Positions 1 through 60,525 of a stretch of DNA of 64,000 bases are shown here, one piece after another (within the stretch, counting starts at the first letter, position 1; each line of letters starts with the position of its first letter). The DNA lies in the NCBI RefSeq assembly GCF_039696035.1, contig NZ_CP155567.1, positions 2,537,001 to 2,601,000 of the forward strand, given 5' to 3'. The position numbers were made by a program, and so were the translations under genes. Below the pieces are notes generated by a model. The model searched no databases. It was not told the DNA's origin and saw nothing but the letters and a program-made list of their open reading frames with translations. Origin of the DNA: Microbulbifer sp. SAOS-129_SWC (GTDB taxonomy: Bacteria > Pseudomonadota > Gammaproteobacteria > Pseudomonadales > Cellvibrionaceae).

Positions 1-159
1 GTAATTTAGTGCTTCGCGTTCCATACGTCACCTATATATTTAACAGTTTATTAAAGAGCCAATGGCTCACTATCTCTTTGGCTACTATTTCTTGGCAACC
101 GTTCGGAATGCGATTAAAAAAATTATTTCAAATCAATCAGTTACACGAAACTGAGCACC

Positions 160-455
160 ATTTAACCAATAATAACCAGCCAACGGCTCAAGTCGCCTGC
201 ATCTACCTATGGCTGTTGAGCATATTTCAAACCCATGCAAAGTCAATGACTTGGGTGGGCTGCCAGGTAGATATGAGCCGCGACTCATTATTTCGGGGCT
301 TGGCGCCTTGCTCACGGAAAATCTAGTGTATTGCCTTCGGCTTCCTTCAGATTCGACCTTGCGATGGACACCCTTGCCGCTCGGCCAATCGTTCTCTTGC
401 CAGGCCGGTAGTAAACTTGCACCACCAGGTCATCCAGTCGTGACCACTATCCCCA
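160..455 (-). mobile_element. Group II intron 5' ribozyme region (fragment)
   Basis: Read on the minus strand, this stretch carries in order several blocks that I know from the RNA domain I region of bacterial group II introns: TGGTGCAAGTTT (complement of about 413-427), CAAGGGTGTCCATCG (about 362-376) and GAATCTGAAGGAAGCC (about 339-355), followed by a tract ending in GGTTAAATGGTGCTC. In complete elements an intron-encoded reverse transcriptase follows. Here nothing resembling its start is seen in the remaining 160 bases to the window edge, so the element is either truncated or continues outside. Domains V/VI were not found. The match is from memory of family sequences, not from an alignment. 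Confidence 0.5.
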
Positions 456-48123: not shown

Positions 48124-48148
48124 ATCCCGGTCTCACAGGACCTGCGAT

Positions 48149-48176
48149 AGGGCGAACTTCGGTTCGCCCTTTTTTA
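48149..48176 (+). terminator. Rho-independent terminator after putA
   Basis: AGGGCGAAC (48149-48157), loop, GTTCGCCCT (48162-48170) followed by TTTTTT. This is a canonical intrinsic terminator 25 bp after the putA stop codon and marks the end of the GC-rich backbone before the cassette array. Confidence 0.92.
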
Positions 48177-48191
48177 TGCCTCCTCCCCCAA

Positions 48192-48402
48192 GATCAAAAG
48201 CCACTGGCTCTTGATCACACCGAATATCGCGCAAGCCTTTGATTCCTAAAGCCCCCGTAATATGATCAAGAGCCGTACAAAAAATAAACGACACAGGCGT
48301 TCGCTCGTTAATTCCGGTTAATATTTAAACATTAAATCGTAACCAATTGATTTCAATGGCTTTTTATTTCTCCCGAGATTTGGCTATCGGGGATCAAGAG
48401 CC
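48192..48402. repeat. Four copies of an 11-bp motif, GATCAAGAGCC
   Basis: GATCAAGAGCC occurs at 48264-48274 and 48392-48402 in direct orientation, at 48206-48216 inverted, and with one mismatch at 48192-48202. The first pair (48192-48216) forms an inverted repeat. All four lie between the putA terminator and the first cassette. Direct repeats for integrase binding are a feature of attI sites; a regulator operator is the alternative. The function is inferred from position. Confidence 0.4.
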
Positions 48403-48430
48403 AAAGTGATAAAGAGTCGTCGGCCTTTGA

Positions 48431-48444
48431 ATAAACTGTTATGC
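48431..48444 (+). other. attI-like insertion point at the start of the cassette array
   Basis: GTTATGC (48438-48444) has the GTTRRRY core form and opens the first cassette, whose own inverse core site at 48945-48951 is GCATAAC, its exact reverse complement. An imperfect left core, AATAAAC, precedes it directly. This is where an integron's attI would end. No integrase gene is present beside it; putA occupies the place where intI would be expected. Confidence 0.55.
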
Positions 48445-48463
48445 AATCATCGGTACTCACACA

Positions 48464-48943
48464 GTGAATCAAAAAATTAAAGACTTTTTCAGCTGCTCTG
48501 AACTATTTGATTACATGAAATGCCGTCAACTTTCCCATATTCGTGGGAATTGGGAGTTAACCTGGAGTCATGCAGAGGAAATTTATGAGCCAGAAGATGA
48601 TAGCTATGCTGATCTGGTTAACAAGTTGATTGACCAGTTGTGTCTTCTCGATCCGCCAATAAAATATCATGACCATGAAGATCGCTTGGCTGAATTCTGC
48701 AGAGAGCGGCTCAATTGGGATATAAAGAAGGTAGGAAATCGCTGGATAGGCTCAGAATATCGATCCATTTTGGAGCAGGGTGGTTTTGATGATGAGGAGG
48801 AGGCTGATCTTTGTCTAGCTGCCTGCGGCAGAGTTAAAGCGGCATTAGAACGTGATCAATTGCACTTTGATGATATGGAATCATCGCACAGAGCAATCCT
48901 TTCTGATGTGATCGCAATTATTCTCTACCATCGGAGCGTCTAG
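48464..48943 (+). CDS. Hypothetical cassette protein
   Basis: This is a 159-residue, acidic cytoplasmic protein in the first cassette, starting at GTG. It contains many Asp/Glu/His residues (KYHDHEDRLAEFCRERLNWD, DEEEADLCLAACGRVKA) and no signal peptide or membrane helix. I do not recognise the family. Its TAG stop lies two bases before the inverse core site, so the cassette carries little besides the gene. As the first cassette it should be the best expressed if a promoter lies in the leader. Confidence 0.75.
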   Translation: MNQKIKDFFSCSELFDYMKCRQLSHIRGNWELTWSHAEEIYEPEDDSYADLVNKLIDQLCLLDPPIKYHDHEDRLAEFCRERLNWDIKKVGNRWIGSEYRSILEQGGFDDEEEADLCLAACGRVKAALERDQLHFDDMESSHRAILSDVIAIILYHRSV

Positions 48944-48944
48944 T

Positions 48945-49064
48945 GCATAACAAGCAGCGGCAGAGCGACAGCCAACGCTACGCACCTTTTGTGTTACTCG
49001 CTGTCGCTCAAACATTAACACAAAAGGAGCTCCGCGCTGGCTGCGCCTGCGCTGGGCGTTATGT
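48945..49064 (+). repeat. attC site 1
   Basis: Inverse core GCATAAC (48945-48951) to core GTTATGT (49058-49064), 120 bp. The interior folds as a long hairpin: CTTTTGTGTTA pairs with TAACACAAAAG and the flanking CAGCC and GGCTG blocks pair. Length and structure resemble the long attC sites of chromosomal integrons. Confidence 0.85.
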
Positions 49065-49079
49065 TTTAGGACCATGGGC

Positions 49080-49427
49080 ATGAAAGCGTTCGTTATTTCT
49101 ACTGTATTAATACTTTCTGGATGCGGATTCTACGATGCCAATGACAAGGTAAATCTGATCATTAGTTGTGCTAGCGGGGATTTTGAAAAAGTGAAGGAGT
49201 TTTCCGAAAAGGTACGATCACTAGATTATGTCTCTATCAAGGGAGATACTCCGTTGGTGGCCGCAAGCTATAATGGCCATTTGACGGTGGTTAAGTACCT
49301 GATTCAGAAAGGTGCGACTTGTAATTTTCCTGACGAGTTGGGCAATACGGCGAAATCAGTCGCACTTGAGAGAGGATACAAGGATATAGTTGGTTTTCTA
49401 CAGGCTGATAGCACATGTACAAAGTAG
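49080..49427 (+). CDS. Ankyrin-repeat lipoprotein (cassette gene)
   Basis: This is a 115-residue protein with a lipoprotein signal peptide (STVLILSGCGF) and ankyrin-type repeats in the mature part. The clearest is GDTPLVAASYNGHLTVVKYL with QKGA; a second is ELGNTAKSVALERGYKDIVG. The protein should be anchored in a membrane facing the periplasm and bind another protein. The start at 49080 is preferred over an ATG two codons upstream because its spacing to TAGGA is correct. It fills the second cassette completely. Confidence 0.75.
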   Translation: MKAFVISTVLILSGCGFYDANDKVNLIISCASGDFEKVKEFSEKVRSLDYVSIKGDTPLVAASYNGHLTVVKYLIQKGATCNFPDELGNTAKSVALERGYKDIVGFLQADSTCTK

Positions 49428-49431
49428 CAAA

Positions 49432-49524
49432 ACATAACAATCACAGGCACGTTGCTACAGCCCTTCGGGCCTCCGCGGGACGGCCTACGCTGCGCTCCGG
49501 CCGCCCGTGCTGTGGGCGTTATGT
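49432..49524 (+). repeat. attC site 2
   Basis: Inverse core ACATAAC (49432-49438) to core GTTATGT (49518-49524), 93 bp. CAATCACAGGCACG at the left pairs with CGTGCTGTGGGCG at the right, around a GCCCTTCGGGC inner hairpin. It shares its outer arms with site 3. Confidence 0.88.
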
Positions 49525-49545
49525 GGCTATCGGATCGAGGCGCAG

Positions 49546-49815
49546 ATGAATATTAGAAATTTTTTTGCGTTAGTTCTTGCTCTCTCTGGAGCAATATTAT
49601 TAGCGAGCGCCTTGTGGTCTTTAACGGGTATATATACATGCCCAGAGGGCACGCCGGATTGTGAGGGTTGGGCCATTTGGGGTGGCTATGTACTCGGTCC
49701 AGCAAGCTTCGGGCTTCTAGTTGGTGGAATAGCTCTGTATAAAAGGTATAGCGCTTGGTTTCAGCTTGCCACAGCCCTTGGGTTAGCGTGGGGCGCATAT
49801 TGGGGGTTCATGTGA
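49546..49815 (+). CDS. Small membrane protein (cassette gene)
   Basis: This is an 89-residue protein with three hydrophobic segments (NFFALVLALSGAILLASALW, a middle helix around GGYVLGPASFGLLVGGIALY, and FQLATALGLAWGAYWGF) and a short loop with two cysteines (TCPEGTPDC). Start ATG 49546 follows GAGG. I do not recognise the family. Sole gene of the third cassette. Confidence 0.7.
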   Translation: MNIRNFFALVLALSGAILLASALWSLTGIYTCPEGTPDCEGWAIWGGYVLGPASFGLLVGGIALYKRYSAWFQLATALGLAWGAYWGFM

Positions 49816-49819
49816 ACCC

Positions 49820-49915
49820 ACATAACAATCACAGGCAGTTAGCGCCGGCCCCTGGCGGGGCCTCTGCGGGACGGCCTACGCTATGCTTCGGCCGCCACTG
49901 CTGTGGGCGTTATTA
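49820..49915 (+). repeat. attC site 3
   Basis: Inverse core ACATAAC (49820-49826) to core GTTATTA (49909-49915), 96 bp. Outer arms CAATCACAGGCAG and CTGCTGTGGGCG are nearly those of site 2, so the two cassettes' sites belong to one subfamily. Confidence 0.87.
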
Positions 49916-50302
49916 CGGCAACCAAAATTCTGGTTGGAAAATTTAGAAACGCGGAAGTTTTGTGCCGTTTAAGAGCGTTTTCAGTATCGGGTATGTCGCA
50001 AGGTTCCAGGCTGGCAGTTTCGCTCCTAGAGCCTTCGTTCAACAAATGTGGTTCCGCACCTTCAATCCAGTATTGTAGGTGCCGGTAAGAGAATTCACGG
50101 GCGGGTAAGTTTTGGTATTCTTTCTCGTCTTAATTGGGTTGCGGCCCTCCGCTGCGCTACGGGCAGCGTGCCAGTAGGTCGTGCAAACCGTGCCTTTAAT
50201 AACTAGGCCAAGCAGCATCGCCCGCGCCCTTCGGGCGCCGGCTGGACGGCCTACGCGGCGCGCTACGCACGCCAAGCGCTCCGGCCGCCGCTGTTGGCAA
50301 CG
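49909..50302 (+). other. Gene-less cassette
   Basis: The boundaries are sound: it opens with GTTATTA and its inverse core in site 4 is TAATAAC. The roughly 280 bp before site 4 hold no convincing gene: the only plus-strand frame (61 codons) starts inside attC site 3 and has no family pattern, and the minus-strand frame begins inside site 4. It may encode a small RNA, a promoter, or be a decayed gene. A GGCCCTCCGCTGCGCTACGG block near 50142 resembles attC interior sequence. Confidence 0.55.
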
Positions 50303-50308
50303 TTATAC
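50197..50308 (+). repeat. attC site 4
   Basis: Inverse core TAATAAC (50197-50203) to core GTTATAC (50302-50308), 112 bp. The interior contains GCGCCCTTCGGGCGC, a perfect inner hairpin, and paired GGACGGCC and GGCCGCC-type arms. Confidence 0.85.
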
Positions 50309-50320
50309 GCAAAATCGAGT

Positions 50321-50683
50321 ATGAAGAACGCAATAATCGTAATTTTGTCTTTTTTATTGGTTGGATCGCTTGGGCTTGGTTTCTTTGTAGCTAAAGATCT
50401 GGCATTAGCTGAGCCAAAGTACGGTGCTGTTTCGTGGTCAGAGAATGATCTGATCATTCTAAACAAGGCGTACGCGGAGCTTGGTAAGGAAGCGAAATTT
50501 CCTTTCGGCTACTATCCATTTGAAATAGTCGAACGCGAGGGCGGCACATCAGTAAGGTTCAGAAGTTATAGGTTTCTTCAGTTAAGAAAGTCTGCATTAC
50601 TTGATGGTGACATTATGGATGGCTGTGTATACGTTAATTTTGATAAGTCCATGAAACTGCAGGACGTCTTTTACTGTGGCTAG
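50321..50683 (+). CDS. Hypothetical protein with N-terminal membrane anchor (cassette gene)
   Basis: This is a 120-residue protein. Residues 3-25 form one hydrophobic helix (AIIVILSFLLVGSLGLGFFV), and the rest is soluble and probably periplasmic, with a KFPFGYYPFEIVEREGG stretch and a C-terminal CVYVNFDKS with two cysteines. The family is not recognised. The stop TAG is followed two bases later by the inverse core of site 5. Confidence 0.7.
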   Translation: MKNAIIVILSFLLVGSLGLGFFVAKDLALAEPKYGAVSWSENDLIILNKAYAELGKEAKFPFGYYPFEIVEREGGTSVRFRSYRFLQLRKSALLDGDIMDGCVYVNFDKSMKLQDVFYCG

Positions 50684-50685
50684 GC

Positions 50686-50829
50686 GTATAACAAGGCGAG
50701 GCATTTCGTTCCGGCCCTTCGGGCCTCCACCGGACAGCTTACTTTGTGCAATTTATGCGCAGGTCGCTCCGCTCCCATTTTCGCGCATAAAGCGCCGAAA
50801 GCAAGCTGCCACTGCTCGCGGCGTTAGCT
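50686..50829 (+). repeat. attC site 5
   Basis: Inverse core GTATAAC (50686-50692) to core GTTAGCT (50823-50829), 144 bp, the longest site. The interior pairs CAGCTTACTTT with AAAGCAAGCTG and GCGCAGG/CGCGC blocks. The arms resemble those of site 13. Confidence 0.85.
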
Positions 50830-50842
50830 GCTACTGAGAGCC

Positions 50843-51232
50843 ATGAGAAATATCCTACTTAGCTTATTGATTTGGTCGAGTCCGTTACTGGCAGAGCTAA
50901 ACCCGGATGAAATTGAGTTTGCGGCTGAAAATATTGCCTTTTACGAGAGCGTAAAAGTTCAGGAGATAGAAAGAGAGAAGGACGCCGCAATACTGGCTAA
51001 TCTCTATTTTGAAAAGTATTCGGCTTTTAGTGGGTCTCCAATACGTATCAAAGATGCTGATAGCGAATGGAAGTTCTCGGTTGGATATGGTTACGGCTTA
51101 ACTGAAAGCGGAGAAACAATTGTTATAAATAAAGAAGATGGTGCTCTTTCGCATAACACATGGCCAAAAGATCTGGCATCGAATTTGGTTGCAGAAAAGC
51201 TGGTGGAGCTCAGAGCTCATGCACCGGAGTGA
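50843..51232 (+). CDS. Hypothetical exported protein (cassette gene)
   Basis: This is a 129-residue protein with a short signal peptide (MRNILLSLLIWSSPLLA) and an acidic, helical mature N-terminus (EFAAENIAFYESVKVQEIER). A beta-rich part (EWKFSVGYGYGLTESGETIV, then INKEDGALSHNTW) and a helical end follow. The beta segment is reminiscent of small NTF2-fold or PepSY-like proteins, but I cannot assign a family. Sole gene of the sixth cassette. Confidence 0.7.
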   Translation: MRNILLSLLIWSSPLLAELNPDEIEFAAENIAFYESVKVQEIEREKDAAILANLYFEKYSAFSGSPIRIKDADSEWKFSVGYGYGLTESGETIVINKEDGALSHNTWPKDLASNLVAEKLVELRAHAPE

Positions 51233-51238
51233 AATCGC

Positions 51239-51355
51239 AGCTAACCAGGCAATGCAGCCGACGGCCAACTTTGCGCACTTCTTGCGCGGTCGCTCCGCTC
51301 CCATTATCGCGCAAAAAGCGCACAAACGTAGCCGCGGTTGATTGCGGCGTTAACT
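51239..51355 (+). repeat. attC site 6
   Basis: Inverse core AGCTAAC (51239-51245) to core GTTAACT (51349-51355), 117 bp. The arms CAGGCAATGCAGCCGACGG and CCGCGGTTGATTGCGGC, and the central GCGCGGTCGCTCCGC block, are shared with site 11 and, in part, with the 33-bp site 10. Confidence 0.87.
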
Positions 51356-51361
51356 GTACAT

Positions 51362-51718
51362 ATGGATAATCAAGAATATTACAAGGCTCAGAGTCATGGG
51401 TTCTCATACCCACAAGAATATGATGGGCTTATTACAAACGCAGGTGAATTTGGCGAATTGCGCTGGTGGTTTATCGGCTCATCTTCAGGCTTATACGACA
51501 TTAGCTATGAGCTTGTGAACAGCGACCTGAAATCAAGCATTGAGCTATTCCCTTTCGCCAAGAGTAGCGAAACAAACGCATTAGCCTGCTTCGATTCAAG
51601 TGGTAAAGTCTATTTCGTTATCGGTTCCAAGCCACTAAATGAAGTAGATTGGTCGCAGCGATTAACCAAACCAAACATAACAGAATGGTACAACGGGGTA
51701 ATGGCAGGTGAGTTCTAG
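51362..51718 (+). CDS. Hypothetical protein, weakly SMI1/KNR4-like (cassette gene)
   Basis: This is a 118-residue cytoplasmic protein starting at ATG 51362 (a longer frame begins in the attC site). It has YPQEYDGLITNAGEFGELRW, then SIELFPFAKSSETNALACFD and GKVYFVIGSKPLNEVDW. The PFAKSSETNALACFD plus GKVYFV pattern recalls the beta core of SMI1/KNR4 (SUKH) proteins, which are often immunity proteins, but the match is weak and from memory. It fills the seventh cassette. Confidence 0.65.
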   Translation: MDNQEYYKAQSHGFSYPQEYDGLITNAGEFGELRWWFIGSSSGLYDISYELVNSDLKSSIELFPFAKSSETNALACFDSSGKVYFVIGSKPLNEVDWSQRLTKPNITEWYNGVMAGEF

Positions 51719-51724
51719 GGCCAC

Positions 51725-51818
51725 AGTTAACAAGTCAAAGCACGCGGACTTGGCAAAGTTGTCACCTTTTTTCCAAAAAGCCGCCAACTCCACCAAGCTG
51801 GTGTTTGAGGCGTTATAA
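51725..51818 (+). repeat. attC site 7
   Basis: Inverse core AGTTAAC (51725-51731) to core GTTATAA (51812-51818), 94 bp. It belongs to a different subfamily from its neighbours: left arm CAAGTCAAAGCACGCGGAC, right arm CCAAGCTGGTGTTTGAGGCG, central CCTTTTTTCCAAAAAG loop. Confidence 0.85.
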
Positions 51819-51830
51819 GGCATTGAAAAT

Positions 51831-52370
51831 ATGAGGATTGTTCTAGCTCTATTTTTTTCAGCTCTGTCTATACCCACATTTGCATTAAATCTTCCCGATG
51901 GCTGGAGACTTCCAAGTGAAAAGGAGCTCTCAGGGGAAGAGAGGGATAATGCACATAACTCCTATTCCTCGGGCAGTCGTTTTTCTAAAGCGGAGGGTGA
52001 CTTCAACAGTGACGGTGTATTAGATTTCGCTTATATACTAGTCAGTACAAAGTTCAATGGAGACGGCCTCTTTATATATTTATCAACTCCATATGGTTAT
52101 AAATGGATTGCACTGGAGGAAGGTAATTTGGATAAAGCATATCCGGACAAGGGTTATGTATACTCTACTCCAGCTATGGGCATAGGGGCACTGTCTCCGA
52201 CGACATTTCGCTCATATGTAGAAAATGCTTGGCCAGAGAATAATGTCTTTCCGGAAGAGGCTGACTTTTCTAGCTCCGCACTAGATTATTTTAAATTTGA
52301 GAGTGCTGGATCTCTATATTTTTGGAGTAAAAGCAACAAAAAATTTGTAAGGTTTTGGTATAGCGACTAG
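51831..52370 (+). CDS. Hypothetical exported protein with a calcium-loop-like motif (cassette gene)
   Basis: This is a 179-residue protein with a signal peptide (LALFFSALSIPTFA) and a mature part that starts LNLPDGWRLPSEKELSGEER. GDFNSDGVLDFAYIL resembles the DxNxDG calcium-binding loops of EF-hand/FG-GAP-like proteins. The remainder is rich in Ser, Tyr and Phe. The molecular role is unknown. It is the largest gene in the array and the sole gene of its cassette; its stop is five bases before the inverse core. Confidence 0.72.
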   Translation: MRIVLALFFSALSIPTFALNLPDGWRLPSEKELSGEERDNAHNSYSSGSRFSKAEGDFNSDGVLDFAYILVSTKFNGDGLFIYLSTPYGYKWIALEEGNLDKAYPDKGYVYSTPAMGIGALSPTTFRSYVENAWPENNVFPEEADFSSSALDYFKFESAGSLYFWSKSNKKFVRFWYSD

Positions 52371-52375
52371 TCGCC

Positions 52376-52465
52376 TTATAACAAGGTGCAGCAATCGCTC
52401 CCGTTGGTCGCTGGGACGCCCAAAACGCTGCGCTTATTTGGCCGCCCCTGTGCGCGGCGTTAAGT
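52376..52465 (+). repeat. attC site 8
   Basis: Inverse core TTATAAC (52376-52382) to core GTTAAGT (52459-52465), 90 bp. The interior has paired GGACGCCC and GGCCGCC-type arms around an AT-rich loop. Confidence 0.85.
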
Positions 52466-52487
52466 GTTCTAGAGCAATGAGGGAAAA

Positions 52488-52883
52488 ATGAAAAATTCTT
52501 ATGCTGCGATAATTGTCGGATCTGCTCTTGCTTTCTTTTTAGAGGTGGTTGTCGGCTACACTAGCGCTATCGAAATCCCAAAAATAATTTTTGAAAATCT
52601 AGGCCCTGAAAATGGACTCCTTCTAGTTGGCATATTCACAGTGACTATCCCATATTTCTTAGTCTCTATTCTGGTTATTCCATTCTTGGCCTATTTCGCT
52701 AGATCTAAAACGCCAGCATATAGCATTGTTACCATGGTGACCCTTGCAGGAATTATTGCCTGGAAATCAAATGGAAATTCTGCTCTCATTAGCCACTACT
52801 GGTCCTCAATACCCGTCACCTTGGGTCTCCTATCTATATTGCTAGCGGCATGGCTAGTTACAAAGCATAAAGTCTACACTTAA
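52488..52883 (+). CDS. Hypothetical four-helix membrane protein (cassette gene)
   Basis: This is a 131-residue inner-membrane protein with about four hydrophobic helices (AAIIVGSALAFFLEVVVGY, LLLVGIFTVTIPYFLVSILV, YSIVTMVTLAGIIAW, TLGLLSILLAAWLV). There is no charged catalytic pattern and I do not recognise the family. Its TAA stop codon forms part of the inverse core ACTTAAC of site 9. Confidence 0.7.
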   Translation: MKNSYAAIIVGSALAFFLEVVVGYTSAIEIPKIIFENLGPENGLLLVGIFTVTIPYFLVSILVIPFLAYFARSKTPAYSIVTMVTLAGIIAWKSNGNSALISHYWSSIPVTLGLLSILLAAWLVTKHKVYT

Positions 52884-52970
52884 CAAACGGCTGTTATCGC
52901 CCCTTTGGGGCTGGGACGGCCTTTCCGCCGCTTTGCGGCTCCAAGTCCGCCCCAAAGCCGGGCGTTAGCT
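52878..52970 (+). repeat. attC site 9
   Basis: Inverse core ACTTAAC (52878-52884) to core GTTAGCT (52964-52970), 93 bp. The left arm AAACGGCTGTTATCGCCCC and the right arm GCCCCAAAGCCGGGCG pair. The degenerate element at 56781-56872 has a similar left arm. Confidence 0.85.
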
Positions 52971-52986
52971 CACCAAGTAGTGATTT

Positions 52987-53367
52987 ATGAGATACGCAAT
53001 ATCCTTTACATTTCTATCTGGCCTCCTTTTAGGTGGGGCAGCTACCTATATGGTAAACCTGGATATTGCAGAGAAGAGAGAAGTCGCAATCTATGAGGGA
53101 GCTAGAAGAAATGTGTTAGTTGATTTCGTGCGCTTTTATCGTACTAGCGCAATAAAAAAGCATATAAGTGAGAAAGAAGGTCTGGAGTGTTTCCTAGTTG
53201 ATTTATACTCTGACATATCGCGTGAGGTAGAGGAAAATAAAGTTCCTCTGAAAAGTTACATTTACAAAAATGAATCTGCATATACCAATATAAATAAAGA
53301 TCTCAAAGAGGTCGCCACGCTGATTGAGTCGAAATTAGAAAGCCCATGCCCACTGATACAGAGCTAA
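52987..53367 (+). CDS. Hypothetical membrane-anchored protein (cassette gene)
   Basis: This is a 126-residue protein with one N-terminal hydrophobic segment (AISFTFLSGLLLGGAATYMV), then a charged helical domain (AEKREVAIYEGARRNVLVDF, KHISEKEGLECFLVDLYSDI) with two widely spaced cysteines. The orientation is probably periplasmic. The family is not recognised. Its TAA stop lies within the inverse core AGCTAAC of site 10. Confidence 0.7.
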   Translation: MRYAISFTFLSGLLLGGAATYMVNLDIAEKREVAIYEGARRNVLVDFVRFYRTSAIKKHISEKEGLECFLVDLYSDISREVEENKVPLKSYIYKNESAYTNINKDLKEVATLIESKLESPCPLIQS

Positions 53368-53394
53368 CAATGCAATGCAGCCGCGGCGTTAGGC
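53362..53394 (+). repeat. attC site 10, reduced to 33 bp
   Basis: Inverse core AGCTAAC (53362-53368) and core GTTAGGC (53388-53394) are intact, but only 19 bases lie between them. These correspond to the outer left arm (AATGCAATGCAGCCG) and the last bases of the right arm (CGGCG) of sites 6 and 11; the whole central hairpin is missing. The internal deletion leaves a site that can hardly fold normally. Confidence 0.75.
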
Positions 53395-53402
53395 GGTAAG
53401 CA

Positions 53403-53738
53403 ATGAATAGTTTAGAAAAATACAAAAAGGCCGCTGATTTTCTTGTCAAAAATGGCATTGAAAAAAAGTCATTGGTCCCACGTTATGTGAGATTTCTTGC
53501 AAATCTTGGGTTTGAGGTAAAGCACCCGGCTTATGCGTCAATTTCATACAACCATTTACGGTACTTGCTCCAACTATTTTTGCCGTTTTCTGCAGGTATC
53601 GGAATTTCACTGCTGTTGGGTCGAAGTGTCGACTATAAAATTTGGGTTGGCGCAGTTATTATTCTTCCGCTTGTATTTTCTCTATACGATTGGTCTCGTG
53701 CCTCAGATAAAAATCTTCCGCGTTGGGATGATCTATGA
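53403..53738 (+). CDS. DUF6404-like membrane protein (cassette gene)
   Basis: This is a 111-residue protein with an N-terminal helical segment (EKYKKAADFLVKNGIEKKSL) followed by VPRYVRFLANLGFEVKHP and two membrane helices (LLQLFLPFSAGIGISLLLG, IWVGAVIILPLVFSLYDW). The order Pro-x-x-R-x-L-x-x-x-G-x-x-V-x-x-P and the two helices fit the DUF6404 family as I remember it; the function is unknown. Sole gene of the eleventh cassette. Confidence 0.68.
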   Translation: MNSLEKYKKAADFLVKNGIEKKSLVPRYVRFLANLGFEVKHPAYASISYNHLRYLLQLFLPFSAGIGISLLLGRSVDYKIWVGAVIILPLVFSLYDWSRASDKNLPRWDDL

Positions 53739-53747
53739 GAGCAATGT

Positions 53748-53864
53748 GCCTAACAAAGCAATGCAGCCGACGTCTTACTTCGTGCACTTTTTGCACGGTC
53801 GCTACGCTCCCATTGTCGCGCAAAAATTACAAAAAGTAAGCCGCGTCTGATTGCGGCGTTATGC
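53748..53864 (+). repeat. attC site 11
   Basis: Inverse core GCCTAAC (53748-53754) to core GTTATGC (53858-53864), 117 bp. The arms AAAGCAATGCAGCCGACG and GCCGCGTCTGATTGCGGC match site 6. The interior GACGTCTTACTT pairs with AAGTAAGCCGCGTC. Confidence 0.87.
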
Positions 53865-53882
53865 ATAAGACTTACCCACGTT

Positions 53883-54000
53883 TAGTAGACACCCTGTATA
53901 GTTAGGTTTCGGCCTAACATGGAGGTGTACCATGGGTAAGAAAAGAACTCAGGCGTATACGGAAGAATTCCGTAGAGAGGCGGTAAAATATGAAAGTTAA
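53883..54000 (+). mobile_element. IS3-family remnant (left end and start of orfA)
   Basis: After a possible terminal sequence (TAGTAGACACCCTG, 53883 on), a short inverted repeat (GTTAGG/CCTAAC, 53911-53928) and GGAGGTG, an ATG at 53932 opens a frame reading MGKKRTQAYTEEFRREAVKY, typical of the beginning of IS3-family OrfA transposase. It breaks off there and ends after 22 codons in the start of the glyoxalase gene. The rest of the element is gone, so this is a deletion scar inside the cassette array. Confidence 0.8.
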
Positions 54001-54358
54001 GCGCATTATGGCCAATACGGCCACATCTGACCTCAGCAAAGCGAAGGCCTTTTATATGGACATACTGGGCCTTGAACTCTTAATGGATCACGGCTGGTTC
54101 AAGACATACGGATCAGATGCAACGATGACTATTCAAGTGAGTTTCGGGTCTGAGGGCGGCTCGGGGACTCCTGTCCCCGATCTATCCATCGAGGTTGATG
54201 ACATCCAATCTGCATTGTCACAGTTCAAGATGGCGAAGGTTCCAATCGAGTATGGGCCCGTCAGCGAGCCCTGGGGTGTTACGCGCTTCTACGTTCGCGA
54301 CCCTTTCGGAAAGCTCATTAATATTTTACAACACGAGCGAGCGAATGCCCCTGACTAA
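53990..54358 (+). CDS. VOC/glyoxalase superfamily protein (cassette gene)
   Basis: This is a 122-residue single-domain vicinal oxygen chelate protein: ANTATSDLSKAKAFYMDILG at the N-terminus, a GWFKTYGSDATMTIQVSF strand pair, and the C-terminal RFYVRDPFGKLINILQH. Such proteins include glyoxalase I, dioxygenases and antibiotic-binding (bleomycin, fosfomycin) proteins; the subclass is not determined. The start overlaps the IS3 remnant, which supplies AGAGAGGCGG as the likely ribosome binding site. Its own cassette opening sequence has been lost, but the length is full. Confidence 0.85.
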   Translation: MKVKRIMANTATSDLSKAKAFYMDILGLELLMDHGWFKTYGSDATMTIQVSFGSEGGSGTPVPDLSIEVDDIQSALSQFKMAKVPIEYGPVSEPWGVTRFYVRDPFGKLINILQHERANAPD

Positions 54359-54438
54359 CTATCCCCGCGGATGCCCGCGAGAATAGCTACCCGTCAATCG
54401 CCGTTGTCCGGGCTCGTCGGCGGCTGCGGACGTTAGGC
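54353..54438 (+). repeat. attC site 12
   Basis: Inverse core GACTAAC (54353-54359) to core GTTAGGC (54432-54438), 86 bp. Its inverse core predicts a cassette opening of GTTAGTC, but the cassette now opens with GTTATGC (53858), consistent with loss of the original 5' end at the IS3 scar. Inner arms GATGCCCG and CGGGCTCG can pair. Confidence 0.65.
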
Positions 54439-54453
54439 AATGGATAGTGAAAG

Positions 54454-54786
54454 ATGATCGTAACTATTTTCGGATGTCTGATTTTCGTTGCTAGCGTTTT
54501 TCAGATTCGATTTCCAAACCTGGCTGTTCTTTTAAGAAATGAAGAATCAGCGACCTGGAAGTCTCTTGGAGCGCCACTGGGGTTCTCCTTCACGGATCTA
54601 GGGAATACACTTTCGCTTTACAGCTGGGTTCTCTCTAAAAAATTCCTGGAATCAGAAAATCCTGAGATTGTTGAAGAAGGTAAAAAGGCATATATAAAAG
54701 CCCATCGAATAAAGTATGGACTTATTCTTGGCCTAACCACAATAATCATGGGCTTGGCCGTCGATCTCGTGCGGTCATTTTCTTAA
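54454..54786 (+). CDS. Small membrane protein, UspB-like layout (cassette gene)
   Basis: This is a 110-residue protein with an N-terminal helix (VTIFGCLIFVASVFQIRF), then LLRNEESATWKSLGAP, a middle amphipathic part (LYSWVLSKKFLESENPEIVE) and a C-terminal helix (GLILGLTTIIMGLAVDL). The layout (helix, LR-x-x-x-P-type loop, short conserved middle, helix) recalls UspB, a universal-stress membrane protein, but similarity is loose. The stop TAA is part of TCTTAAC, the inverse core of the next site. Confidence 0.6.
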   Translation: MIVTIFGCLIFVASVFQIRFPNLAVLLRNEESATWKSLGAPLGFSFTDLGNTLSLYSWVLSKKFLESENPEIVEEGKKAYIKAHRIKYGLILGLTTIIMGLAVDLVRSFS

Positions 54787-54916
54787 CAAATCCGGGCAAT
54801 TTTCTCCGGGCCTGCGACCCTCCTCGGGACAGCTTAGCTTGTGCATATAGTGTGCGGTCGCTGACGATTGTATTTTAGCGAAAAATCTGAAAATTAAGCT
54901 GCTCTTGAGCGCGACT
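54781..54916 (+). repeat. attC site 13, degenerate, array end
   Basis: An inverse core, TCTTAAC (54781-54787), is present, and the interior (GGACAGCTTAGCTTGTGCA to TTAAGCTGCTCTTGAGCGCG) resembles site 5. The right end reads GCGCGACTTGA instead of a GTTRRRY core. The inverse core is not complementary to the cassette opening GTTAGGC (54432). It is therefore a decayed site closing the array. Confidence 0.55.
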
Positions 54917-54952
54917 TGATAATTCAAATTTGGTACCCTCATAACGATAAAA

Positions 54953-55057
54953 ATGAATATATCTTATCCGTACATATGTGCCAATATGGATAAAGCACTT
55001 AAAGAGGCGCTCGGACCCCTAGGCGCTTATATATTAGACAAGTTTTTTCGGAAGTAA
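54953..55057 (+). CDS. Possible small protein
   Basis: A 34-codon frame after the array (MNISYPYICANMDKALKEAL, then GPLGAYILDKFFRK), with a second possible start at the internal ATG 54983. The C-terminal part is amphipathic and protein-like, but there is no good ribosome binding site. It could be the surviving end of a decayed gene. Low confidence; the rest of 54917-55152 is AT-rich with no other signal. Confidence 0.25.
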   Translation: MNISYPYICANMDKALKEALGPLGAYILDKFFRK

Positions 55058-55152
55058 ACCAAGTAAACTTAATTTCAGACTTGAATATATTTATAATCCA
55101 ACATAAAAAATTCTGCAGATAAAAATACGGTTAAGGATAATCGGAGGAAAGA

Positions 55153-55377
55153 ATGGAATTTATTACCAGCACCGCTGATGTAATTGGACTTATCATCTTT
55201 GGGTTTAGCTTTATTATGATTCTTACCCTTGCCTTCCAGAAAGGCACAGGCTGGGGTCTTAGCATGCTGGTATTTACGCCGATAGCAGCGCCAATATTTC
55301 TACTGAAAAACTGGAATGAATCTTCTTTCTGGTTTTCCGGAGCGGCGATAGGCCTGGCAATAATGTCAATCTTTTGA
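55153..55377 (+). CDS. Small two-helix membrane protein
   Basis: This is a 74-residue protein with a good ribosome binding site (GGAGGAAAGA before ATG 55153). Hydrophobic segments are VIGLIIFGFSFIMILTLAF and GWGLSMLVFTPIAAPIFLL, with a third stretch near the C-terminus. I do not recognise the family. It lies outside recognisable attC sites but has the same AT-rich composition as the cassettes. Confidence 0.65.
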   Translation: MEFITSTADVIGLIIFGFSFIMILTLAFQKGTGWGLSMLVFTPIAAPIFLLKNWNESSFWFSGAAIGLAIMSIF

Positions 55378-55531
55378 GCCCGCTTTACCTCCGCAAGAAC
55401 GATGCCCCGAGCTTTTCCTTTCCGCAGGATGCCCGACATTTTGCATTTTTGTGCGAATCGCTGCCCCCTCTATTCCGTACAAAATTAACATGGAATTGAT
55501 CTACCCTGTTGTAGACGTCAAGTAAAATAAA

Positions 55532-56554
55532 ATGGTAATTCATATCCCCAGAAATTCTCATCGCTACTTAAGTGTGGCGTTGTTTCTGTTCTGTTTTCTA
55601 TTCATCCCTTTTTATACAAGCGAAACATATAAAGCACAATCATCTACAAACTTACTCTTGCTAGGTTGGTTAGGGCTTTTGGCCGGTTATTTTTCATGGC
55701 TAGCTAACCCGGCTTATCTTGTTGCTGTTATATTCAAAAAAAGGAAAATAACAATCTTATTTTCCGTTCTAGCTTTAATCCTATCCTTATCTTTCCTGGA
55801 AAAGGAAAGGTTAGTAGTCAGCGAAGCTCCTACATATGAAGCAATTGTCGCCTATGGCCCTGGCTATTTCCTCTGGACACTTTCCTTCTTCACTCTTTTT
55901 CTGGGGGAGATATTAGCCACACCTAAAATTAAGGAATCTCATAGGCAGGCCTCACTGATTTCAGCAATTATCTTTTTAACACTTATCTATGGGGCCTATT
56001 ATTGTTGGGGAAACCGCAGTATTTATCATATATTTTCAGAGCGCGAAAAGAACTTTATGGCGCTATGCTCGAAAGTTCAAGAAAGACAATACAAACCCGT
56101 CAGAAATATCAAAGGGGTTTATATTGACTACATACCCGGCAACTACTTCAGAGACATTTCAGGCCACAAGTATGGCGCCCATGGTGGGACCTTAATTAGT
56201 TATATTCGTGGTGGTTACTATGACTTTGAAGAAAGAACACCCTATAGCGAAAAAGAAACGACATTACCTTTTGTTAGAATCTACGCTAATGCACCCAATA
56301 AACGCTTACCGATTAAAAACCTAGAGTCAAATTACTCGGTAACCTCTATTGATTTGGCATCAGGTCTTCCGGATGCCTTGGGAATAGAAAGCTACAAAAT
56401 TATCATAAAATCTTTAGAGACCGGCGAAATATATGCAGAGTCATCTTTTGCAACTATTGAAAACGAACTAAAAATTTGTGCCCCCACAGATAGCAGCACC
56501 TATTCAGTATCTGGCTTTGTTTTCAACGCGCTGAACCTTCAGAAAAATCACTGA
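55532..56554 (+). CDS. Hypothetical membrane protein with soluble C-terminal domain
   Basis: This is a 340-residue protein. Residues about 10-160 contain five hydrophobic helices (for example YLSVALFLFCFLFIPFY, LILSLSFLEKERL preceded by a long helix, YFLWTLSFFTLFLGEILA). Residues about 165-340 form a soluble domain, probably periplasmic, with cysteine-containing strands (ALCSKVQER, ELKICAPTD). I do not recognise a family. It is AT-rich, without a flanking attC, and has no strong ribosome binding site near ATG 55532. Confidence 0.65.
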   Translation: MVIHIPRNSHRYLSVALFLFCFLFIPFYTSETYKAQSSTNLLLLGWLGLLAGYFSWLANPAYLVAVIFKKRKITILFSVLALILSLSFLEKERLVVSEAPTYEAIVAYGPGYFLWTLSFFTLFLGEILATPKIKESHRQASLISAIIFLTLIYGAYYCWGNRSIYHIFSEREKNFMALCSKVQERQYKPVRNIKGVYIDYIPGNYFRDISGHKYGAHGGTLISYIRGGYYDFEERTPYSEKETTLPFVRIYANAPNKRLPIKNLESNYSVTSIDLASGLPDALGIESYKIIIKSLETGEIYAESSFATIENELKICAPTDSSTYSVSGFVFNALNLQKNH

Positions 56555-56780
56555 CGGGAGGAGTCCACTTAACAGGCGTAGTTACAGGCGTAGAATTCCC
56601 TCTGCCCTATAGTTTTAGCTGTGTTCTAGAGGTTATGACACAGCCGAACCATACGAAAATATGACAGAAGGTTGATGAAATTATTAAGATGGGCACAACC
56701 CCCTTTAAATTTTCACGGGCATATTGCCAACCAGGCATTTACTGCTATAGGTTATCCAAGGGAATTGGAGGACTATGCGA

Positions 56781-56872
56781 GTAATTAGCAAGCGGATATT
56801 ATCGCCCTTCCGGGCTGCAAAGGGCCTTAAAACCAACCCACCAGCCAGACACGCTGAAACCGCATGTTATGG
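56781..56872 (+). repeat. Degenerate attC-like element
   Basis: GTAATTAGCAAGCGGATATT, then ATCGCCCTTCCGGGC, resembles the left arm of site 9 (AACAAACGGCTGTTATCGCC), and the right end has CGCATGTTATGG with a GTTATGG core-like sequence (56866-56872). The inverse core is not intact. It may be a decayed attC of a formerly longer array. The stretch 56555-56780 before it holds nothing I can name. Confidence 0.4.
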
Positions 56873-56905
56873 CACGACGCCGCTCACAAGACAAGGAGAG
56901 AGTGT

Positions 56906-57073
56906 GTGAGAGAAACTGTGAAAGAATCATTGAAAGAGTCATTAAAAGATTGGTGGGCTAACAATAAAGAACATGAAAAGAGAGCCTTATTGGTTTTGGG
57001 TGCTATTTTTTGTGGAATTTTTATTTTTGTATCCGGGATTTCTGTGGGGCGTGCTGTAGCAGCACTCATATAG
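56906..57073 (+). CDS. Small single-helix membrane protein
   Basis: This is a 55-residue protein starting at GTG 56906, with AAGGAGAG just upstream; the open frame extends to an ATG at 56864 but that start has no ribosome binding site and lies in the attC-like element. A charged amphipathic N-terminus (RETVKESLKESLKDWWANN) is followed by one membrane helix (LVLGAIFCGIFIFVSGISVG). Not recognised. Its position directly after an attC-like element suggests a cassette gene. Confidence 0.55.
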   Translation: MRETVKESLKESLKDWWANNKEHEKRALLVLGAIFCGIFIFVSGISVGRAVAALI

Positions 57074-57582
57074 CTGAAAGCAGCAAAAACCACGATGGAT
57101 ACTTGTGAATACGCCATCTGGAAAGCACAGAAAATTACCCAATGGTACGCCTGATGGGAAACCCACAGGAGAAGTCATTGTTGACCGTAGAGACAAGAAG
57201 GATGTTGTGTTTATCCCCCTCCCCTGTTGACTTGTCATACCTTCCAGAGATTTTAGCGTGAAGGCATCATCATCGTCTCACGACCTGTTTTTCTCGTTTC
57301 TGTACAGCGCATTGGGCATCGCCATGGCCACTGCAGCATTCTCAGCCCTGTTTGGAAAGCGCCATTTATGGCGCCGGCACTACTTTTGATTTCAGTATTT
57401 CTATTCGTGCTAACTCCTCAGCACTCAGAGCATCTTGACGTGGATAGGTAACAGCAATCGTCAGCAGTATTTCAATCGTACTGAATCAAGCATTGCATTA
57501 AATCCTGAGTATTAGATACTCTTCCGCCTCGCTCCATCTACCACCCCAGATACCGTTTTTCATATAGGAGAAGGAACTCACC
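57074..57582. other. Intergenic region with possible gene fragments
   Basis: No full gene. Three short frames look protein-like: a plus-strand 41-codon frame from GTG 57105 to 57230 (contains GEVIVDRRDKKDVVFIPLP), a plus-strand 43-codon frame from GTG 57258 to 57389 with one hydrophobic helix (LFFSFLYSALGIAMATAAF), and a start-less minus-strand frame 57366-57485 (contains TYPRQDALSAEELARIEIL). They may be remnants of decayed accessory genes. The right end carries AGGAGAAGGA, the ribosome binding site of the next gene. Confidence 0.35.
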
Positions 57583-58134
57583 ATGCGACTAATTCTTGCG
57601 CTCTTGACTTTTATTACCGCAATTGCCCATGCAGACTCTTATCATCGTTTTGCAGGTATTACCTGTATTGAAGAGGCCGGTTATCTTGAAATACGGGCCA
57701 CAGGTATTAGCAATATCTTTATGGATGGTATAAAACCTGAGGTGATGAAGGCGATCAAGGAGAAGTCGAACCTTCACTACGGGAAAAATATTGAACAATC
57801 ATGCAAGCTTGGAAAGTATTCCTATACCACTCAGATAAAATTTCAAGATTCTCAGAGCCGTGGTCGATGCATGGGTAATCCCGGTGGATATATAACACTA
57901 AAAAGAAACGGGAAAACCATAATCGATAATGTATCATTTGACTGGGATTGCGACTGGCCAGACCTGGATACAATTAAAGTGCAGTGGTATAAATTTGTTC
58001 ATGCTTGTGGGATAGATCATACTCAGGGCGAGCGATACAACAGGTCTTTCTGTATAGACTATTCGGGTGCTAGAAATCCGATAATCAATAAAAAAGAAAT
58101 TACCAGAAAGCTCAATCGTCTATACCCAGAATAG
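57583..58134 (+). CDS. Hypothetical exported cysteine-rich protein
   Basis: This is a 183-residue protein with a signal peptide (MRLILALLTFITAIAHA) and six cysteines in the mature part (ITCIEEAG, QSCKLG, GRCMGNPGG, DWDCDWPD, VHACGID, SFCIDYSG), which could form three disulfides. GRCMGNPGGYITLKRNGKTI suggests a beta-rich body. AGGAGAAGG before ATG 57583 supports translation. The family is not recognised. Confidence 0.72.
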   Translation: MRLILALLTFITAIAHADSYHRFAGITCIEEAGYLEIRATGISNIFMDGIKPEVMKAIKEKSNLHYGKNIEQSCKLGKYSYTTQIKFQDSQSRGRCMGNPGGYITLKRNGKTIIDNVSFDWDCDWPDLDTIKVQWYKFVHACGIDHTQGERYNRSFCIDYSGARNPIINKKEITRKLNRLYPE

Positions 58135-58177
58135 ATTAGAATATAGCCAAGTGCTCTGGTAGACATCATAAAATACG

Positions 58178-58235
58178 CACCTCTGTGCGCGGTTATCACT
58201 CCGCCATTTGCACAGAGGTGATGTGTACTGTACAC
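58178..58235. promoter_or_regulatory. Inverted repeats upstream of the XRE-type gene
   Basis: CACCTCTGTGC (58178-58188) and GCACAGAGGTG (58210-58220) form a perfect 11-bp inverted repeat with a 21-nt spacer. Directly after it GTGTAC-T-GTACAC (58223-58235) is a second perfect palindrome. These lie about 125-180 bp before the HTH regulator's start and are candidate operator sites, or a terminator remnant of the preceding gene. Confidence 0.35.
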
Positions 58236-58357
58236 CGCCCCGAATCCGGGGTTATCGGGCCATGTCATACACAATGCGTACAGGTGTCACAAAGGTGTCG
58301 TAACCAATTAAGGCTGATCCACTGAAAATATGACCTCAATTTTCAGAGGACAGAAAT

Positions 58358-58966
58358 GTGGAAGTGAAAGTAAACGCACAAAAAATAACCAGCTTGAGAG
58401 CTACCCGGGCCTGGAGTCAACAACAACTGGCTGACATCGCATCAGTGAGTTTGAGGACCATACAGAGGATTGAAAAGAGCGGAAATGCCTCGCATGAGTC
58501 CGTGAAATCACTTTCTGCGGCCTTTTCGATCAGGCCTGAAGATCTGCTGATTCAGGAAACACAGAAGTTTTCACTGGAAAAACTCGGTAAGAGATATATC
58601 GCCGCAATGTTTGCGTTAGGCGCGGCGTCTCTTCTGTATGCATCCTTGTCCTCGGCATCACCCATCATGCTCAAGGTAGAGGCAAGCTCAAATAATGAGC
58701 AGCTGGCATCCATCCATCTTCTGAATGAAGAAGGTGATCACAGCGAAATGCGTGTTGAGAATAGGCTCAAAATTGATATCTCTGCAGAACAGACCCCGGA
58801 GAACCAGATTCGCTTAAAAACCCGGGTCTATGAATTTAAGGAGAAGTTGGGTTATGTCAATGTAGCAAGCCCGATATTACTGACGGAGTTTAATAAATCA
58901 GCCGGGATTAAGTTTATCGCCGCAGACGGAGTACCCATTGAAATCCAGGTTACACCACAGAACTAG
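58358..58966 (+). CDS. XRE-type HTH protein with a transmembrane segment
   Basis: This is a 202-residue protein starting at GTG 58358 after AGAGGACAG. Residues about 8-62 are a Cro/C1-type HTH (ITSLRATRAWSQQQLADIAS, then VSLRTIQRIEKSG). Residues about 78-98 are a membrane helix (YIAAMFALGAASLLYASLS). The remaining 100 residues form a beta-rich domain (EASSNNEQLASIHLLNEEGD, then KIKFIAADGVPIEIQV-like end) that would face the periplasm. This is the layout of a one-component membrane-bound regulator. The target is unknown; two palindromes lie upstream. Confidence 0.8.
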   Translation: MEVKVNAQKITSLRATRAWSQQQLADIASVSLRTIQRIEKSGNASHESVKSLSAAFSIRPEDLLIQETQKFSLEKLGKRYIAAMFALGAASLLYASLSSASPIMLKVEASSNNEQLASIHLLNEEGDHSEMRVENRLKIDISAEQTPENQIRLKTRVYEFKEKLGYVNVASPILLTEFNKSAGIKFIAADGVPIEIQVTPQN

Positions 58967-59000
58967 CTCTTAGGCTCAATAAAAAACGCGATATAGTGAC

Positions 59001-59035
59001 CTCGCCCCCGGGGACCAGCTGCGGGGCGGGTTTTA
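59001..59035 (+). terminator. Rho-independent terminator
   Basis: CTCGCCCC and GGGGCGGG flank a 13-nt loop and are followed by TTTTAAT. It lies 35-70 bp after the stop codon of the XRE-type gene and just before the next gene's ribosome binding region. Confidence 0.7.
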
Positions 59036-59048
59036 ATAGGGAAAATCG

Positions 59049-59597
59049 ATGAATCAGTCACAACAGTTGTTTGGTAACCCTTCAGAGAGAGCGGCATCGA
59101 AAGTAAGAGATCATATGGTGCCGTGGATAATGGACTTTATCAGAAACTCACCCTTTTTGGTGATGTCGACGAGCGACAAATCGGGTAATTGCGATGCATC
59201 TCCCAAAGGGGGGTTGCCGGGGTTTGTAAAGGTATTATCTGAAACAGAGTTGCTGCTCCCTGATGTGGCCGGAAACAAGCTGTTTCAGTCTTATGAAAAC
59301 TTTGAATCAAACCCTAAAGTTGGCCTCGTATTTTTTATCCCGGGCATAAACGCGACGGCGCGAGTGAACGGGGCCGTTTCAATTTTGAGAGCAGGCAACC
59401 CGGAATTTGAGGCACTGGGCCTGGAGGTCTATACGCCTGACGAAAAAGCGAAAATATTACAGGCGATAAAAATATCCGTTCATGAATCTTACAGTCAATG
59501 CCCGAGGGCTTTGGGATTTTCAGGCTTGTGGAACGGCGATACGATCGCGCGCAATGTCGAGCACTCACCCATCGGCAAGTGGGTTGCGGGAACGTAA
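59049..59597 (+). CDS. Pyridoxamine 5'-phosphate oxidase family protein
   Basis: This is a 182-residue FMN-binding split-barrel protein of the PPOX family (MSMEG_1061-like branch): VPWIMDFIRNSPFLVMSTSD and GNCDASPKGGLPGFVKV at the N-terminus, LLLPDVAGNKLFQSYENFES in the middle, and NPKVGLVFFIPGINATARVNG as the core strand pair. It probably binds FMN or F420-like flavin and reduces a small molecule; the substrate is unknown. It is co-directional with but separated from the XRE gene by a terminator. Confidence 0.85.
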   Translation: MNQSQQLFGNPSERAASKVRDHMVPWIMDFIRNSPFLVMSTSDKSGNCDASPKGGLPGFVKVLSETELLLPDVAGNKLFQSYENFESNPKVGLVFFIPGINATARVNGAVSILRAGNPEFEALGLEVYTPDEKAKILQAIKISVHESYSQCPRALGFSGLWNGDTIARNVEHSPIGKWVAGT

Positions 59598-59721
59598 GGA
59601 TCTGCGCCAGCTTTGCCACTACTGAATAGACAACGCCAGGCTCCGGGTAGCCACCTGCGGCAAAATCATCTTTACTAGGCTGGAGTAAGCCCCTCGAAGG
59701 ATTGCTCAAGCGATATAGCCA

Positions 59722-60525
59722 GTGGATGCCTGCAACCTGATTCGCGCGCCAATTCTGCACCCTGCAGGCCCCGTGGCCATCGCCGAGCGCGACCTGCTGT
59801 TCACCGCGGTTTTCATCATGCTGATCGTGGTGATACCGGTCTTCGTGATGACCTTCCTGTTTGCCTGGCGCTACCGGGCATCCGGTGGCCGCGGACGCTA
59901 TACGCCCAACTGGTACTATTCCGGCAAAGTGGATGCGGTCATCTGGTTGGTGCCGGCGCTGATCGTGATGGTGCTGGGCTACCTGCTGTGGACCGAAACC
60001 CACAGGCTCGACCCCTACCGGCCACTGGCCACCGACGCTCCACCCCTAGAGGTAGAGGCGATCGCCCAGGACTGGAAGTGGCTGTTTATCTATCCCGATC
60101 TGGGAGTCGCGTCGGTCAACGAGCTGGCGTTTCCCAGCAGCCGCCCCCTGAGCCTGAAGATCACGTCCGATACGGTGATGAACTCTTTCTTTATTCCGGC
60201 GCTGGGCGGGCAGATCTACGCCATGGCAGGTATGCAGACACGCCTGCACCTGCAGGCCGACAAGCCCGGCTGTTTCCGCGGCCGCAATATGCAGTACAGC
60301 GGCCACGGTTTCCCCGAGCAACGCTTCGCGGTGCGGGCCCTGACCCGGACCGAGTTCGATGCCTGGCTGTCCAGGGCCAGGAAGTCCCCCCAGAAACTCG
60401 ACCAGACTAGCTACCGGGCGCTGGCTGCGCCCAGTGTCGACCACCCTGTCAGCTATTATTCCGGGGTCGCTCCGCGGCTGTACGACAGTATTGTCGCGAA
60501 ATATGGCGGCAAACATCCGGAATAA
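59722..60525 (+). CDS. cyoA: Cytochrome bo-type ubiquinol oxidase subunit II, N-terminus short
   Basis: This is a 267-residue subunit II. The mature pattern is clear: a first helix (TAVFIMLIVVIPVFVMTFLF), WRYRASGG, a second helix (AVIWLVPALIVMVLGYLLW), AIAQDWKWLFIYPD, and the cupredoxin-like domain with SDTVMNSFFIPALGGQIYAM. As usual for the quinol-oxidising type, no CuA cysteine pair follows (MQYSGHGF). The gene starts at GTG 59722 as MDACNLIRAP: the lipid-modified cysteine is at residue 4 but the signal peptide normally before it is missing, because an in-frame stop (TAG 59716-59718) precedes the start. It is first of cyoABCD. Confidence 0.88.
   Translation: MDACNLIRAPILHPAGPVAIAERDLLFTAVFIMLIVVIPVFVMTFLFAWRYRASGGRGRYTPNWYYSGKVDAVIWLVPALIVMVLGYLLWTETHRLDPYRPLATDAPPLEVEAIAQDWKWLFIYPDLGVASVNELAFPSSRPLSLKITSDTVMNSFFIPALGGQIYAMAGMQTRLHLQADKPGCFRGRNMQYSGHGFPEQRFAVRALTRTEFDAWLSRARKSPQKLDQTSYRALAAPSVDHPVSYYSGVAPRLYDSIVAKYGGKHPE

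Follow-up and report, generated by a model that had tools for sequence, protein, structure and literature searches.

How an array of integron cassettes comes to be filled where no integrase is encoded is the question raised by the region behind putA in a 64,000-nucleotide stretch of Microbulbifer sp. SAOS-129_SWC (contig NZ_CP155567.1, positions 2,537,001 to 2,601,000; "the window" means this whole stretch, and its genome is G000 in comparisons). In the usual picture, an integron consists of one integrase with an adjoining landing site, and arrays lacking an integrase are regarded as debris or chance insertions. Directly after putA, the window carries a co-directional run of short AT-rich cassettes with attC recombination sites between them, headed by a landing site of the attI type and a motif like the cassette promoter (Pc). 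From the sequence comparisons given below, it is quite probable that this array stands on a Pc/attI platform without an integrase gene (intI) and has been loaded by a distant integrase (IntI) of the same genome.

The original prediction had reported an integron-type array with no integrase in the window, viewed either as a CALIN-like cluster (cluster of attC sites lacking integron-integrases) or as an array whose intI is lost or distant. The absence of an integrase is borne out: the window holds no tyrosine recombinase, all five of the genome's PF00589 matches lying outside it, and no TIGR02249 match falls within it. A lost or distant intI came nearer the mark, as the genome encodes, ~1.20 and 1.36 Mb from the window array, two full-length intI without stops (IntI-A and IntI-B; 422.6 and 414.1 bits), both of which have an attI and an array of their own, and integrase-less attI are found after putA in two other species. 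The label of a CALIN-like cluster described the attC cluster without a nearby intI correctly and missed the attI and Pc-like promoter at its head.

The attI was recognized with a sequence model (R1) made from 19 intI-linked attI only. A motif search found a common attI end in the intI-attI region at 19 of 23 intI loci of the genus and did not find it at the remaining four; its consensus is about GATATAAAG, an inverted repeat, with GAATWAACTG|TTA. The platform of the window array is composed of three features.

48150..48175, + strand: intrinsic terminator of putA, the left border of the platform, seen in the sequence; the same hairpin and T-run precede the platform in two other species, G034 and G016.
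48239..48266, + strand: Pc-like promoter TTGATT-N16-TATGAT, with spacing and attI distance as in G034, G016 and the IntI-B platform.
48397..48441, + strand: attI of the window array, with the crossover at the core G of 48438 and no adjoining intI (R1 30.5 bits, E 1.9e-6).

The predicted Pc stands as far from attI as does the TTGACT-16-TATGAT of the IntI-B platform; at the IntI-A platform the -10 element is poor. The window platform corresponds to an intI-attI intergenic platform minus intI and minus the LexA box.

Such platforms recur in the genome. R1 gives eight strong attI (E 1.9e-4 or better; the next values are 0.005, 0.39 and 1.5), two adjoining intI and six without it (orphans), and every one of the eight heads an attC array. 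A second orphan platform occupies the left end of the window.

41..88, - strand: second orphan attI (R1 24.1 bits, E 1.9e-4), whose array exits the window leftward.
219..246, - strand: Pc-like promoter of this second platform, TTGACT-N16-TATGCT, recognized by motif.

The array of the second platform (window 41-246, - strand) continues, with attC, in L122 from 19940 down to ~16850. Three further arrays of the genome are without a full attI (G000 254987-259029, 555010-556677 and 4222807-4225737), the last having a weak partial attI in front (11.8 bits).

The attC sites themselves were assessed with a covariance model (R2) of 22 attC of this genome, its structure drawn from one member and checked on further ones. 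All eight pairs of the inner stem covary, and shifting the partner by 1-3 columns abolishes the signal; 93.7% of cells are paired vs 72.4% in shuffles, none of 500 shuffles being equally high. In the covariance search proposed in the original prediction, the window has full-length matches at ten places, with scores of 45.4 to 80.5 bits and E values between 5e-9 and 4.8e-18, and is otherwise free of significant matches; as all ten are training sequences, these matches arise by construction. Across the whole genome there are 82 matches, 62 of them, by hand count, outside the training set. Hand counts also place 23 of the 82 in the two arrays linked to intI, 43 in those headed by the six orphan attI and 14 in the three attI-deficient arrays; 2 are solitary.

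Comparison of species shows where the arrays diverge. In four orthologous pairs of orphan sites, flank and platform align to +2, +3, +3 or +5 of the core, and the cassettes differ beyond.

G011 and G019: 96% identity, -1719..+3.
G023 and G033: 92% identity, -1784..+2.
G064 and G010: 90% identity, -692..+3, and 87% beyond, with ~63 extra bases in one.
G000 and G034: 86% identity, -1892..+5.

Downstream of the crossover, short attC-like resemblances are all that is found, together with, in G000/G034, 182 bases at 81% around the start of an insertion sequence (IS). The intI lists of these genomes contain no intI at these places; G010 and G064 have in common a weak 21-amino acid match (E 0.45 and 0.09) that may be the same intI remnant. 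All eight genomes have at least one intI over the cut-off without an internal stop. The continuous homology implies that the common ancestor no longer had a complete intI at the site, and the differing cassettes beyond it imply that cassettes entered or left after the species split. This apparent order of events, intI loss before the split and cassette change after it, points to integrases acting in trans.

The putA locus itself was compared among relatives. G034 and G016 have an attI without intI, followed by different cassettes, after putA, and no intI follows putA in the available stretches of 20 relatives, two of which are short contig ends. The distance from putA to cyoA is 0.45 to 1.3 kb in three relatives vs 11.6 kb here. 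Identical order and spacers in relatives, named in the original prediction as the sign of a vertically inherited, non-mobile cluster, were not seen in the two other species with attI at this place.

Besides the breakpoints at attI in the species pairs, a further possible trace of IntI recombination is an identical cassette in two arrays. A 401-base stretch, consisting of cassette 4 (393 bp) with its attC plus 4 bases on each side, is 100% identical in the window and in the IntI-A array ~1.2 Mb away. Cassette 4 occurs in six copies of 94-100% identity in three arrays of the genome; elsewhere it has partial 70-78% matches in other genomes and one 97% match over 30 bases. The copies lie at 49909-50301 of the window and at 1388768, 1390456, 1393011, 1395179 and 2191732 of G000, two of them directly behind attI. 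Other cassettes are common to the IntI-B array and an orphan array at 4345 kb (98.6%), and to the latter and the attI-less array at 255 kb (94%).

The inverted repeat of attI comes in flavours, GCC..GGC and GAC..GTC, with the GTC..GGC of the window array intermediate between them. Within one genome, the orphans and the integrase-linked attI seem to share these flavours. Orphan attI (32 in 12 genomes) are closer to the linked attI of their own genome, with 8.5 vs 12.0 mismatches out of 34 and p 0.0006 from 5000 shuffles of the genomes, a comparison confounded by kinship and including one antisense chance entry among the linked sites. When insertion sequences are set aside, arrays with a full attI share cassettes within one flavour, on the basis of approximately three cassette families. 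This pattern is weakened by the intermediate repeat of the window array and by an array of the other flavour that holds, at 3096521-3096715, a diverged relative (69%) of cassette 4, and cassette sharing by attI flavour is a lead only.

Orphan attI are widespread in the genus. Of 19 exact matches to the 18-bp attI end, 16 are in Microbulbifer records (nine names) and three in unrelated metagenome bins. R1 matches 46 of 48 genomes of the genus (E 0.1) and 9 of 142 outside it (E 0.001), where at least one match adjoins a partial intI. Matches in two other genera of the order are found in G037, G128, G069 and G169, with two or three apiece in all but G069. In 16 single-contig Microbulbifer genomes, 61 attI are among the matches listed (to E 9.4e-5), of which 15 adjoin intI and 46 do not, a proportion at odds with the usual picture of the integron in these complete genomes of one genus. 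As R1 was trained on intI-linked sites, the orphan share is not inflated by training. The same genomes hold 31 intI, five of them with a stop or truncated, and 16 intI have no attI among the matches listed.

A closer survey covered 67 attI sites taken, non-randomly, from the best search matches (12 with a full intI, two with a fragment). The first cassette is self-consistent, its own inverse core matching its first core, at 55 of 61 sites with enough downstream sequence (control mean 5.3%, maximum 17%), and at 43 of 47 orphans. A -35 element at -210..-190 is present in 36 of 46 orphans vs 4 of 906 control windows. An exact LexA-type box accompanies 10 of 12 intI-linked sites vs 2 of 53 sites without a full intI; the two exceptions are a site in G005 beside a 100-amino acid intI fragment and one in G033 (L184) with the apparent first codons of intI. 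A simple rule places the start of 16 of the 49 orphans just past an intrinsic terminator on the same strand, as against 3 of 243 control windows and 2 of 49 on the opposite strand. Orphan sites are platforms rather than chance sites, and we read the pattern as intI trimmed out from between two parts that were kept, the upstream terminator and the Pc-attI.

Three other explanations must be weighed against loading by a distant integrase. That the array is a dead relic, its cassettes frozen and its attI a fossil since the integron lost intI, is unlikely, though it accounts for the damaged attC of cassettes 10, 12 and 13, for the decayed tail of the array and for genomes that retain attI without intI. 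That intI loss does occur is shown by fragments of the gene, adjacent to attI in G005 and more distant in G062. Against the relic, the first nine attC of the window array are intact, all four intI-less orthologous pairs with homology to the core carry different cassettes, and an identical cassette stands in the IntI-A array. A second alternative is that cassettes moved from array to array without IntI, by ordinary homologous recombination or by gene conversion between attC and platform sequences that the arrays have in common; the similar attC, repeated cassettes and insertion sequences across arrays could supply the homology. This too is improbable, slightly more so than the relic: all four breakpoints lie 2-5 bases from the crossover, and the 100% identical stretch is a single cassette plus 4 bases on each side.

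The array might, finally, have arisen by off-target insertion of cassettes at a chance genomic site (attG-type), giving a CALIN without an ancestral integron. Off-target insertion is among the origins proposed for CALINs, with intI loss and rearrangement (PMC8618304), and IntI is indeed encoded elsewhere in the genome. The site nevertheless resembles intI-linked attI (30.5 bits) and has a Pc-like promoter at the platform distance, and the aligned upstream stretches show homology to intI-linked platforms, so that this origin is very hard to credit.

Use by IntI of an attI on another molecule is established laboratory practice. In the preferred reading of a platform served at a distance, cassettes would have been inserted at the attI of 48438 by IntI-A and IntI-B, the Pc would transcribe the first cassettes, and older cassettes would lie further from attI with their attC decaying. 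The window platform is one of six of its kind in the genome and of many in the genus, with few integrases and many landing sites. IntI action in trans at the window attI and activity of its Pc are predictions from sequence patterns. Several results weigh against this reading. The share of attC near intI varies, being 23/82 in the genome of the window, 19/42 in G033 and 34/48 in G018 (hand counts), and in G018 those 34 lie in two intI-linked arrays. Four of 47 orphans have no self-consistent first cassette, and a good -10 element (at least 4 of 6) is present in only 19 of 46. G028, G067 and G006 have attI matches and no intI at E 1e-25 or better, so that platforms can outlive every integrase and those in these genomes may be dead. 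The pair comparisons extend 1.6 to 11 kb downstream, several contigs ending within the array. In addition, homology between the window and G016 stops 251 bases before the core, and this pair therefore shows a shared place and no breakpoint at attI.

A broader proposal, more tentative and somewhat short of an even chance, is that of a distributed integron, in which a few SOS-controlled integrases would serve several dedicated attI/Pc platforms scattered along the chromosome and kept by selection, matching attI flavours would divide the platforms between integrases, lack of an integrase would be the normal state of a platform and not a sign of decay, and several first-position cassettes could be expressed at once. 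If true, more promoter-proximal places would be usable per cell. The change of cassettes after the integrase had gone, at the orthologous sites compared, already runs counter to the usual picture, and the platforms offer natural material for studying the specificity of an integrase toward its attI.

The array shares features with several known systems. It has the attI and covarying attC of a complete integron and lacks the adjoining intI; a motif at the conserved place is its candidate Pc. Like a CALIN, it has at least two attC without a nearby intI (ten strong sites, the nearest intI ~1.2 Mb away); it is not an attC-only cluster, the usual CALIN definition being blind to the presence of attI or Pc. 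Mobilization of CALINs in trans is a published idea, and CALINs headed by attI are not described in the available text of the same sources (PMC12444791, PMC11389934). Current software would class such platforms as CALINs, as IntegronFinder 2.0 is described as having no attI detection outside class 1 (PMC9024848). The IntI-A and IntI-B integrons have the same attI end and attC family as the window array, with the identical cassette shared with IntI-A; they differ in possessing intI, accompanied at IntI-B by an exact LexA-type box, and both are missing from the window platform. Loss of LexA control is reported to accompany integrase inactivation (PMC3108266), and both pseudogenes of intI and genomes with more than one intI are already known (PMC2426708). 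In Xanthomonas integrons at ilvD, intI is often broken or absent and CALINs occur at recurrent chromosomal places, but attI is not mentioned at the other loci in the text available, and the two cassettes of X. citri pv. citri are identical in all genomes (PMC12444791), whereas the cassettes here differ between species. The related marine bacterium Saccharophagus degradans 2-40 has a core integron and five satellite cassette clusters with the same 140-bp repeat, proposed to stem from transposition of a repeat; unlike here, attI does not figure there, with no occurrence of the term in the text available (PMC2386152). The open-access full texts searched gave no account of attI/Pc platforms that lack intI, occur several to a genome and outnumber intI.

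The cassettes of the window stand out in composition, with a GC content of 0.42-0.50 over 48-55 kb vs 0.64-0.67 over 45-48 kb. The core positions of cassettes 1 to 11 are their first bases in the list.

48438..49057, + strand: cassette 1, a 159-amino acid protein without Pfam match; attC 48945-49064.
49058..49517, + strand: cassette 2, a 117-amino acid ankyrin-repeat protein; attC 49432-49524.
49518..49908, + strand: cassette 3, a small membrane-like protein; attC 49820-49915.
49909..50301, + strand: cassette 4, without a convincing open reading frame, identical copy in the IntI-A array; attC 50197-50308.
50302..50822, + strand: cassette 5; attC 50686-50829.
50823..51348, + strand: cassette 6; attC 51239-51355.
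51349..51811, + strand: cassette 7; attC 51725-51818.
51812..52458, + strand: cassette 8; attC 52376-52465.
52459..52963, + strand: cassette 9; attC 52878-52970.
52964..53387, + strand: cassette 10; attC reduced to 33 bp, 53362-53394.
53388..53857, + strand: cassette 11, a DUF6404 protein; attC 53748-53864.
53858..54431, + strand: cassette 12, in which the first part of an IS3-type transposase gene runs into a glyoxalase-family gene; attC 54381-54438, decayed.
54432..54924, + strand: cassette 13; attC 54781-54924, decayed, 17.1 bits.
54925..59661, + strand: AT-rich tail to the conserved cyoA flank; decayed attC-like site 56783-56872, 13.3 bits.

The IntI-style cassette ends described in the original prediction are confirmed: in 11 consecutive cassettes (cores 48438 to 53388) the own inverse core agrees with the first core in 7 of 7 bases, whereas cassettes 12 and 13 lack self-consistent ends. 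In the region as a whole this word test yielded 19 pairings, eight of them outside the series, so that the core match alone is weak and attC structure is needed. The earlier count of thirteen segments is fair, yet the number of strong attC is only ten, three junctions being decayed: the 33-bp remnant (15.4 bits), the site of cassette 13 and the one after the glyoxalase cassette (6 bits). A home-made duplex scan for attC was dropped, with 5 matches vs 0 to 5 in ten block-shuffled sequences, and a chain search for self-consistent cassettes halted early in several arrays (after 7 in the window, after 1 in the IntI-B array and one orphan).

Most cassette proteins are unassigned, as originally stated: Pfam matched 2 of 10 in one set and one of the last two. 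PADLOC, applied to 10 of the cassette proteins, gave ankyrin-type matches to one and nothing else, Rfam at the gathering threshold gave no match over 47000-60000, and the RNA fold of cassette 4 is ordinary (z -0.40). The tail probably consists of older cassettes; its genes are orphans that include a helix-turn-helix protein and a PNPOx-like protein. The same IS3-type element begins a few bases past an attC core in several arrays (window 53868-53990, L072 3447-3534, L123 from 10654, L011 at ~14418), a position as though attC ends were its target.

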